A stretch of DNA of 64,000 nt, from the NCBI GenBank assembly GCA_019359315.1, contig JAHHHO010000006.1, positions 62,001 to 126,000 of the forward strand, written 5' to 3'. The notes beneath the pieces were generated by a model. The model did no database searches. It was not told the origin of the DNA and worked only from the letters and a program-made list of their open reading frames with translations. Source of the DNA: Myxacorys californica WJT36-NPBG1 (GTDB lineage Bacteria; Cyanobacteriota; Cyanobacteriia; Leptolyngbyales; Leptolyngbyaceae). This document shows, in pieces, positions 5,094 through 34,159 of the stretch (its first letter is position 1; each line of letters begins with the position of its first letter). The translations under genes were made by a program, and so were the position numbers.

Positions 5094-5903
5094 TTGAGTA
5101 ACGCTGGTCTGCCGGGAAAACCTCCCAAAGATTCAAATCCCTCGTTTGATGATATTCCGGTTGCTGAGCGTGAAACCGTTGAAGTTCCGTCAAAGCCGCG
5201 TCGCAATTTGACTGGATTGATTGTGGGAGTTGGCGCGATCGCGCTTGCTGCCTCTGGATTGGTTGCTTATCAATATCGCTCTGCTTTGTCTTCGATCGCG
5301 TCTAATCCGATCTCCCCCAGTCCTGAAGCCTCTCCCAATGTCAGCCCAACTGATGCCGATGGGCGACTGCTCAATCACTACACCTATGCCGAAGCGCCTC
5401 AATCTGAGCTAGAGCCAATTAGTGACGATGGAGGGATAAAGCTGCGCTCTAGTGCTGCGAAAGCTTATCGAGAGATGGTCAATGCCGCTTCAGCCGATCA
5501 GGTTGTATTGGTTCCACTCTCTGCGTTTCGATCGATCGCTGAGCAGCAAGACGTGTATTTCAATGTGAAAGCGGAGCGCAATCAGAGTGTCCAGCAACGA
5601 GCAGAGGTCAGCGCACCGCCCGGACACAGCGAACATCACACGGGATATGCGATCGATCTTGGCGATGGTAATACGCCCGCAACAAATCTAAGCCCTACCT
5701 TTGAAGAAACGGCTGCCTACAAATGGCTGCAAGCCAATGCTGCTCGATTCAATTTTGAGCTTTCGTTTCCAAAAAATAATCAGCAAGGCGTAACCTACGA
5801 GCCTTGGCATTGGCGGTTTGTTGGCGATCAGCAGAGTTTAGAAACATTCTACAAAGCTAGACAAAACAAAGAACAGGGAGCTGAAAATACGAACAAGGGT
5901 TAA
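5094..5903 (+). CDS. Membrane-anchored VanY-family D-alanyl-D-alanine carboxypeptidase (M15)
   Basis: Trims the terminal D-Ala from peptidoglycan stem peptides on the periplasmic side. The N-terminal 36 residues are cytoplasmic, residues about 41-61 are a single membrane anchor (LIVGVGAIALAASGLVAYQY), then a Pro/Ser linker leads to the peptidase. Zinc-site motifs are complete: GHSEHHTGYAIDLG at 177-190 (His181, Asp188) and YEPWHWRF at 235-242 (Glu236, His239). The substrate-binding SAFRS motif is at 143-147. The TTG start at 5094 is supported by a CAGGAG ribosome binding site about 8 nt upstream and by lack of an ATG before the anchor. It follows the PRC-barrel gene by 92 nt. Confidence 0.88.
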   Translation: MSNAGLPGKPPKDSNPSFDDIPVAERETVEVPSKPRRNLTGLIVGVGAIALAASGLVAYQYRSALSSIASNPISPSPEASPNVSPTDADGRLLNHYTYAEAPQSELEPISDDGGIKLRSSAAKAYREMVNAASADQVVLVPLSAFRSIAEQQDVYFNVKAERNQSVQQRAEVSAPPGHSEHHTGYAIDLGDGNTPATNLSPTFEETAAYKWLQANAARFNFELSFPKNNQQGVTYEPWHWRFVGDQQSLETFYKARQNKEQGAENTNKG

Positions 5904-5943
5904 GTAAATCGGCTCTGCTTTAGTTTTCTTACCGTTTATCTCT

Positions 5944-6627
5944 ATGAATCAAACTGGATTAAATCTCGCTGCAATTTCTATTTTCGCAATGACGCTTTCA
6001 GTGTTGCTGGGTCCATTGCTAAACATCTCACCGTTTGTTCCTGCGATCGCAGTCTTCGGTGTCTTGAGCGTCGCGACGCTTGATTCACTGCAATGGCAAG
6101 GAAAGTTTGGTTCCGTTGTCCTAGATTGGTTCGCCAGTTTCTCACCGGATCACCGCGATCGCGTGATTCATCATGAAGCAGGGCATTTTCTCGTAGCTCA
6201 ACAGCTTGAGATTCCAGTTGTGGGCTATACCCTCAGCGCTTGGGAAGCGATCAAACAGGGACAAGCCGGGCAAGGCGGTGTTCAGTTCGATACACAAGAA
6301 CTTGATCAGCAATTGCAACAGGGCAAAATCTCGGCGCAATGGCTCGATCGCTTCTGCACCGTTTGGATGGCGGGCATCGCTGCAGAACAGATCACGTACG
6401 GAAGTTCGGAAGGTGGCAGCGACGATCGCAGCAAATTCCGGCAAATCTTGATGCAGTTGGGCATGACAGCATCAGATATCGAACAGCGAGAACGGTTAGC
6501 CGTTTTGCGAGCAAAAACGTTGCTGCAAAATCACGAATCGACTTACGAGGCATTGGTTACTGCTCTGCAAGAACGACAAACGATCGAATCTTGCTATGAA
6601 GCCATTCACGCCACAATAGAGGCATGA
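5944..6627 (+). CDS. FtsH-peptidase-like (M41-like) membrane metalloprotease without an ATPase domain
   Basis: Probable zinc peptidase. Residues about 7-48 form two hydrophobic segments, so it is likely membrane-bound. HHEAGHFLVAQ at 76-86 holds the HEAGH zinc signature (His77, Glu78, His81) with the same following context as FtsH, and GGSDDRSKF at 157-165 offers the third Asp ligand. The AAA ATPase domain of FtsH is absent; the whole protein is 227 residues. Such stand-alone M41-like proteins occur in cyanobacteria and plastids. It lies 40 nt after the VanY gene and may be co-transcribed. Substrates unknown. Confidence 0.7.
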   Translation: MNQTGLNLAAISIFAMTLSVLLGPLLNISPFVPAIAVFGVLSVATLDSLQWQGKFGSVVLDWFASFSPDHRDRVIHHEAGHFLVAQQLEIPVVGYTLSAWEAIKQGQAGQGGVQFDTQELDQQLQQGKISAQWLDRFCTVWMAGIAAEQITYGSSEGGSDDRSKFRQILMQLGMTASDIEQRERLAVLRAKTLLQNHESTYEALVTALQERQTIESCYEAIHATIEA

Positions 6628-33146: not shown

Positions 33147-33350
33147 TTAGTCTTCTGGCAAGATCCATTGAGGCGGAGCCGAGGCTCGCTCTCGTGCTTT
33201 TTTGCGTACCGCTTCGTCTGCCATCTCTAGCAGCTTATCTAGAGGTGTGTCGCTGATGAACTGCGAGGTTTGCTCTTTGTACTCAAGATTGGGACATTGA
33301 TCTCCTAGAACACATCCGTTTTGGCACATTTCGGCACAGTTAATGTCCAT
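33147..33350 (-). CDS. Small conserved cysteine-rich cyanobacterial protein
   Basis: Not assigned. The 67-residue protein begins MDINCAEMCQNGCVLGDQCP with cysteines at 5, 9, 13 and 19, spaced like a metal- or cluster-binding loop. The second half is an Arg/Lys/Glu helix (LLEMADEAVRKKARERASAP) that ends in PPQWILPED. I have the impression of having seen this protein as a conserved cyanobacterial hypothetical; that could not be checked. It stands alone. Confidence 0.65.
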   Translation of the reverse strand: MDINCAEMCQNGCVLGDQCPNLEYKEQTSQFISDTPLDKLLEMADEAVRKKARERASAPPQWILPED

Positions 33351-33502
33351 AGTCTCTTCTCCGTGATTTTAGAGGCTGATCGGCATGTCCCTATCTTACC
33401 GACCATTTCGGATTGTTCTGATCTCCACTATGGAAGAAGAATTCGTCCTAGAGTAGAACAATTCACCAAGGCGATTAATTCTAGTTTTGGGGTGAAGGAG
33501 CA

Positions 33503-34159
33503 ATGAGATTCCCTCTACTTTTGGCAAGTTTTGGTTGTCTAGCGATCTCAAACGCGGGGTATGCAGTAGACGTGCTTTCTCCCGAGCAGCAGGTTCGAGA
33601 GGTGTCTAATCGTTTGATTGGAGTGATGAGTACGGCGGAGCAGTCTGCCGCTAATCCCAAGATTGCAAATGTTCAAATGACAACCTGTGCTGTGTCAGTG
33701 AAAGGGGTGTCAGATCCCAAATCTGTTTATCTCTATCAAGAACAAGCCATTAATGCGGCGCAAAATTCAGGCGCGGCTCAGTTTGGGAAACCTTATCGGC
33801 AGCGGTTTTTGCAACTTTCACCTAATGCCGCAAATGGGAGTGTGCGATCGCTATCGTTTCGTCCTGCCGAAGCAACTCGATGGATCGGTCTGTGTAATCG
33901 CCCTGAATCTGCGCGAGTTGTGCAACTTCAAGATGTGGGCAAACCAACTTGTGCGGTCTTCTTAAAGCAATCTGGAGACGCCTATATTGGGAGAACTCCG
34001 ATTAATGGCTGTCCTTCTAATGTTCGGGGAGCCGTGCGTGTTACCAACTATATTGAACTCGAACGCAATCGAATGAATACCTACGATCGCGGTTATGACG
34101 CGAATGGCAAACAAGTATGGGGCGCAAAAGAGGGGGCGTATCAATTCAAGAAAATCTGA
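33503..34159 (+). CDS. CpcT/CpeT-family (chromophore lyase-like) protein with a signal peptide
   Basis: CpcT and CpeT attach or chaperone bilins on phycobiliprotein beta subunits in the cytosol. Here the C-terminal 70 residues follow that family: CAVFLKQSGDAYIGRTPING with Cys170 after it, then a charged strand and the ending TYDRGYDANGKQVWGAKEGA-YQFKKI. Arg101 and the SLSFR motif (116-120) also fit. In contrast to the true lyases, residues 1-21 (MRFPLLLASFGCLAISNAGY) are a signal peptide, so this product should be exported. Thus it may bind another ligand. There are no phycobilisome genes in the window. Confidence 0.75.
   Translation: MRFPLLLASFGCLAISNAGYAVDVLSPEQQVREVSNRLIGVMSTAEQSAANPKIANVQMTTCAVSVKGVSDPKSVYLYQEQAINAAQNSGAAQFGKPYRQRFLQLSPNAANGSVRSLSFRPAEATRWIGLCNRPESARVVQLQDVGKPTCAVFLKQSGDAYIGRTPINGCPSNVRGAVRVTNYIELERNRMNTYDRGYDANGKQVWGAKEGAYQFKKI

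Follow-up and report, generated by a model that had tools for sequence, protein, structure and literature searches.

A predicted exported CpeT/CpcT-fold protein of cyanobacteria and its affinity to plant CRL

The gene and its signal peptide

The window analysed here is a 64,000-nucleotide stretch of a Myxacorys californica WJT36-NPBG1 contig, and at 33503..34159 on the + strand it carries an open reading frame of 218 amino acids. Its domain match, an orthologue search and alignment assign the product to the CpeT/CpcT fold, as a predicted exported protein of the branch that includes the plant protein CRL. The ATG is the first in-frame start downstream of an upstream TAG, and direct reading reveals the sequence AAGGAG (33495..33500, +) 2 nt before it, a possible Shine-Dalgarno sequence at a short spacing. 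Codons 1–21 (33503..33565, +) have the sequence features of a signal peptide, with likely cleavage after GYA (A21). A heuristic reading of the N-terminus, MRFPLLLASFGCLAISNAGYA followed beyond this predicted site by VDV, distinguishes n-, h- and c-regions of the Sec type, with a positive n-region, a hydrophobic h-region and an AxA-like end. The AlphaFold model (mean pLDDT 90.2) has a low-confidence helix at residues 4–17, followed by a confident barrel domain.

A signal-like N-terminus is also a regular feature of the relatives. By a crude heuristic it is present at 84 of 89 orthologue loci; the cytosolic lyases give 0 of 53 and the remaining neighbouring ORFs 121 of 586, a contrast which argues that it is not there by chance; the five orthologue loci that fail are mostly truncated, frameshifted or mis-anchored. 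Exported relatives in other taxa likewise score as signal-like by this crude heuristic, in 25 of 26 cases. In the orthologue loci inspected, the frame upstream of the domain is open and hydrophobic, and usually AxA-ended, although the sequence itself diverges. The original prediction of a signal peptide at residues 1–21 is thus borne out, and we infer from these sequence features that the protein is directed to the Sec pathway, cleaved and exported. A mis-called start, in which the GTG at codon 24 (33572) would yield a family member of the usual cytosolic kind, is most improbable and was rejected: this GTG lies just past the hydrophobic stretch and is the only downstream start ahead of the domain that omits it, but conservation of the hydrophobic segment in the orthologues argues against its use.

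Domain, pocket and cysteines

The CpeT/CpcT domain, which is already in Pfam as PF06206, spans residues 34–217 (33602..34153, +) and matches its profile with 161.9 bits (cut-off 21; E-value 2e-47) over profile positions 2–181 of 181. A poor match or a partial one can therefore be set aside, and the original assignment to the CpcT/CpeT family, made from a C-terminal signature, stands as to the family and fails as to the C-terminus, since the profile spans the full domain. A search of NCBIfam with the window protein assigned no family.

Several residues of the bilin pocket of the T-type lyases are retained. The PYRQR motif at residues 97–101 (33791..33805, +), which we take to represent the bilin-pocket arginines and tyrosine of CpcT, is invariant in the alignment of the exported cyanobacterial clade, with Y98, R99 and R101 present in 66/66 proteins, and the pocket equivalents E80, D195 and W206 are likewise invariant in all 66. 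The bilin-pocket residues of Nostoc CpcT are presumably E54, Y65, R66, R68, D163 and W175; the alignment also shows that the equivalent of R97 of the CpcT pocket is not kept in the window protein. Near the C-terminal end the alignment defines the signature DRGYDANGKQVWG at residues 195–207 (34085..34123, +).

The mature domain contains exactly four cysteines, and these are always C62, C131, C150 and C170 in 66/66 distinct proteins of the clade, whereas the total per lyase varies from two to five. Two of them, Cys150 (33950..33952, +) and Cys170 (34010..34012, +), are conserved in every group but CRL. Cys62 (33686..33688, +) is shared by the exported cyanobacterial clade, a small exported group with PEP-CTERM-like features and CRL, and occurs in at most one of 32 lyases; it co-occurs with Cys131 (33893..33895, +), its predicted disulphide partner. 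The pair is accompanied by the motif FC[DN].P...R in 34 of 34 exported cyanobacterial proteins and also in CRL, and both cysteines also occur together in the PEP-CTERM-like group. None of 26 exported relatives of other taxa has the pair, and among the 32 lyases there is at most one isolated case. Because C62 and C131 co-occur perfectly and the number of cysteines is even and fixed, the pattern fits disulphides formed in an oxidising compartment, and we regard this as the probable state of all four.

Relationships to the lyases and to CRL

The host genome encodes phycobiliproteins and haem oxygenase, and has three PF06206 genes: a typical CpcT on contig C118, a paralogue resembling Slr1649 (type b) on contig C76, and the window gene. 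The first two begin right at the domain, without a signal. The C76 paralogue shares its Pfam domain and its genome with the window gene, but it is only 24% identical to the window protein and sits in the lyase clade.

Within its own family, searches with the window protein found orthologues in 26 of 42 genomes, at about 101–102 bits or more and then with a gap down to 47 bits, and in 57 of 390 sampled genomes of the class at the same score level; they are about 42–59% identical to it. A named scan places the exported clade in Leptolyngbyaceae, Calothrix, Moorena, Planktothrix, Aliterella, Hyella and others. The genome searched from the same genus lacks an orthologue, so the distribution is patchy. 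We also note some variant forms of the family. A second and very divergent exported CpeT group belongs to another cyanobacterial family (L089, about 1399–2124, and L096); it keeps all four cysteines, has lost the PYRQR, DRG and WG motifs, and has a weak PEP-CTERM-like sorting tail. Three loci (L068, 916–2130; L067, 946–2115; G480:C2:2012923-2014050) encode two tandem CpeT-like domains behind one signal peptide, and in L067 Pfam sees the first domain only. At G066:C1:4760747-4761420 (L088, L095) a cpcT-like gene is split across frames and contains an internal TAG, so that it may be a pseudogene or reflect an assembly error.

An unrooted tree separates a group of exported cyanobacterial proteins (99/96) from one of cytosolic lyases (100/99), with the other exported proteins between them. 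The question of whether exported members form a clade, raised with the original prediction, is thus answered positively for the cyanobacterial ones, which stand apart from the lyases; the accompanying view of an exported member as an odd exception does not hold, as the exported members make up two large groups. Because one constrained search gave a better tree than the free search, the deep branching among the three groups is tentative. The T-type phycobiliprotein lyases CpcT and CpeT (PDB 4o4o, 4o4s and 5hi8) share with the window protein the Pfam domain, the fold, the pocket residues and the equivalents of C150 and C170, but they differ in being cytosolic (signal peptide in 0/53), in their separate clade, in the lack of the C62/C131 pair and in their variable total of cysteines.

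The nearest solved match by sequence, profile and fold is CRL (CRUMPLED LEAF) of the Arabidopsis outer plastid envelope (PDB 6lix and 6liy). First, a profile search of solved structures gives CRL at 2.8e-28 and CpcT at 1.3e-6. Secondly, a fold search with the model ranks CRL 6lix best (E 5.9e-15), then CpcT 4o4s and CpeT 5hi8, with nitrobindins, which are haem proteins, next after these. Thirdly, profiles of the three groups score CRL itself at 105 bits (exported cyanobacterial), 96 bits (other exported) and 59 bits (lyases). The two proteins share C62, C131 and the motifs FC[DN].P...R, P[YF]RQR and DRGFD...QVWG, and CRL, like the clade of the window protein, is not linked to phycobilisomes. 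However, they are only about 27% identical, CRL has no equivalents of C150 and C170 and forms a long branch, and it is listed as an outer-envelope signal-anchored protein whereas the window protein has a cleavable-looking signal. In the tree CRL joins the exported cyanobacterial group (100/99, and 99/96 when the columns of the Cys motifs are left out), although it stands there as one long branch, and an AU test rejects neither its placement with the lyases (p 0.41) nor one among the other exported proteins (p 0.47). These comparisons suggest that the exported cyanobacterial clade holds the closest bacterial kin of CRL found here, with a tree placement that the AU test weakens. An earlier network defined four bacterial groups, none of them named as exported, and kept eukaryotic sequences apart from these (PMC2408579); one study places the origin of CRL at the terrestrialisation of plants rather than in the plastid ancestor (PMC11135702). 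In the open-access literature searched, we found no description of the exported cyanobacterial branch or of its tie to CRL.

The named scan also found PF06206 relatives in Planctomycetota, Bacteroidota, Calditrichota, Ignavibacteriota and one Lysobacterales bin; almost all of these proteins begin with a signal peptide or in the manner of a lipoprotein. These proteins share the signal peptide, PYRQR, GC...C and DRG.DA.GKQVWGA with the window protein and their hosts are without phycobilisomes, but they lack the C62/C131 pair, are often lipoproteins, are 29–35% identical to the window protein and fall outside the cyanobacterial clade. Fifteen genomes carrying exported relatives gave no match to the phycobiliprotein family PF00502, which argues that a role in phycobilisomes is not what keeps the exported form in genomes; haem oxygenase (PF01126) is present in two of these genomes and absent from 13. 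The family search further showed that two genomes of the same phylum as the host of the window but outside its class (G001 and G026) encode CpeT proteins with lipoprotein-like starts (L078 and L079), and searches of both found no match to phycobiliproteins or haem oxygenase. In one exported protein of Planctomycetaceae (L155, about 5100–6580) a CpeT domain is joined to DUF1684, a fusion that may hint at function.

Possible roles and gene context

We think it probable that the window protein is exported and forms a barrel of the CRL branch, stabilised by disulphides, which binds a ligand and has its role in the envelope and not on phycobilisomes. The pre-protein would be exported via the Sec pathway and cut after about residue 21, and would fold outside the cytosol, most likely in the periplasm and possibly in the thylakoid lumen, as a lipocalin-like barrel held by the four invariant cysteines, probably in two disulphides including C62–C131. 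Because the ligand pocket of the T-type bilin lyases is kept, the ligand would most likely be a linear tetrapyrrole or one of similar shape, bound non-catalytically, and the protein would resemble CRL, its relative, in acting at the cell envelope rather than in phycobilisome assembly. That an exported member does not serve phycobilisomes and has another role was part of the original prediction, and it gains support from the separate clade, the phycobiliprotein-free hosts of its kin, the fixed four cysteines, and a nearest solved relative, CRL, from plants without phycobilisomes; the tie to CRL itself was not part of that prediction. The phycobilisome lyases are just one cytosolic branch of a family that occurs in exported form in several phyla without phycobiliproteins, and to call this protein a chromophore lyase, after its family, is probably misleading as to both location and substrate.

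As to the molecular role, the main rivals are tetrapyrrole binding as such and assistance to Omp85. The first, raised in the original prediction as binding of a different tetrapyrrole, would have the protein scavenge, store or chaperone haem, biliverdin or some other tetrapyrrole in the periplasm, as a binder of lipocalin type without lyase activity. The invariant pocket residues, the place of the nitrobindins in the fold ranking and the exported lipoprotein relatives in heterotrophs are consistent with this, but haem oxygenase occurs in so few of the phycobilisome-free genomes with relatives, and haem-uptake genes are absent from the 20 scanned neighbours of the other exported members; we consider it a possible alternative.

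Somewhat doubtful is a periplasmic partner of the Omp85 barrel assembly machine, with a pocket that binds lipid or peptide. The host genome has three Omp85 matches, and the bacterial hosts named here fall in phyla that we take to be outer-membrane (diderm) phyla. The place of CRL as nearest solved relative also favours such a partner. Oep80, the Omp85 of plastids, is a reported interaction partner of CRL, and its complex shrinks from ~200 to 160 kDa on loss of CRL (PMC12373785); CRL is also tabulated under 'OEP80 insertion' (PMC10542568). By analogy the exported protein may act at the outer membrane. However, no Omp85 gene lies near the window gene in the host genome or among the 20 scanned neighbours of other exported members, and the gene cannot be essential for barrel assembly because it is patchy, being present in so small a part of the sampled class and missing from the same-genus genome. 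We speculate, as a doubtful extension, that CRL has its bacterial counterpart in the exported cyanobacterial clade, as a periplasmic barrel assisting the Omp85 machine, and that plastid CRL descends from, or has a common ancestor with, a cyanobacterial protein of the exported kind and not a cytosolic phycobilisome lyase. A cyanobacterial CRL relative with four fixed cysteines and a signal peptide would offer a simple genetic system for the role of the CRL fold at the envelope.

A true bilin lyase, whether it charges an exported or lumenal acceptor or acts on cytosolic phycobiliproteins ahead of its export or instead of being exported, is improbable: the protein has the T-lyase fold and pocket, but its clade is separate from all lyases, the signal region and the four-cysteine pattern are conserved, and it has kin in genomes without phycobiliproteins.

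Gene context was dropped as a guide to the function of this probable envelope protein, since the neighbours of the exported gene differ between lineages and the context is not conserved. A scan of 20 neighbours of the other exported group found no functional theme. About 11 Leptolyngbyaceae-type loci do share an order. Judged from reading the sequences, the gene is flanked in them by one whose product has SGNH-hydrolase-like motifs and, on the other side, by genes of response-regulator, RsbW-like and dnaA-like type, and there are no bilin-related genes among the neighbours in these loci. We also note a divergent neighbour, a cysteine-rich ORF of 67 aa (33150..33350, − strand), which matches no Pfam family and is kept beside the exported gene in related genomes. 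It begins with C-x3-C-x3-C-x5-C, its relatives contain INCAEACxNGCVLGDKCPNLEY, and it is divergent to the exported gene in about 16 related genomes, sometimes with one or more genes between the two.
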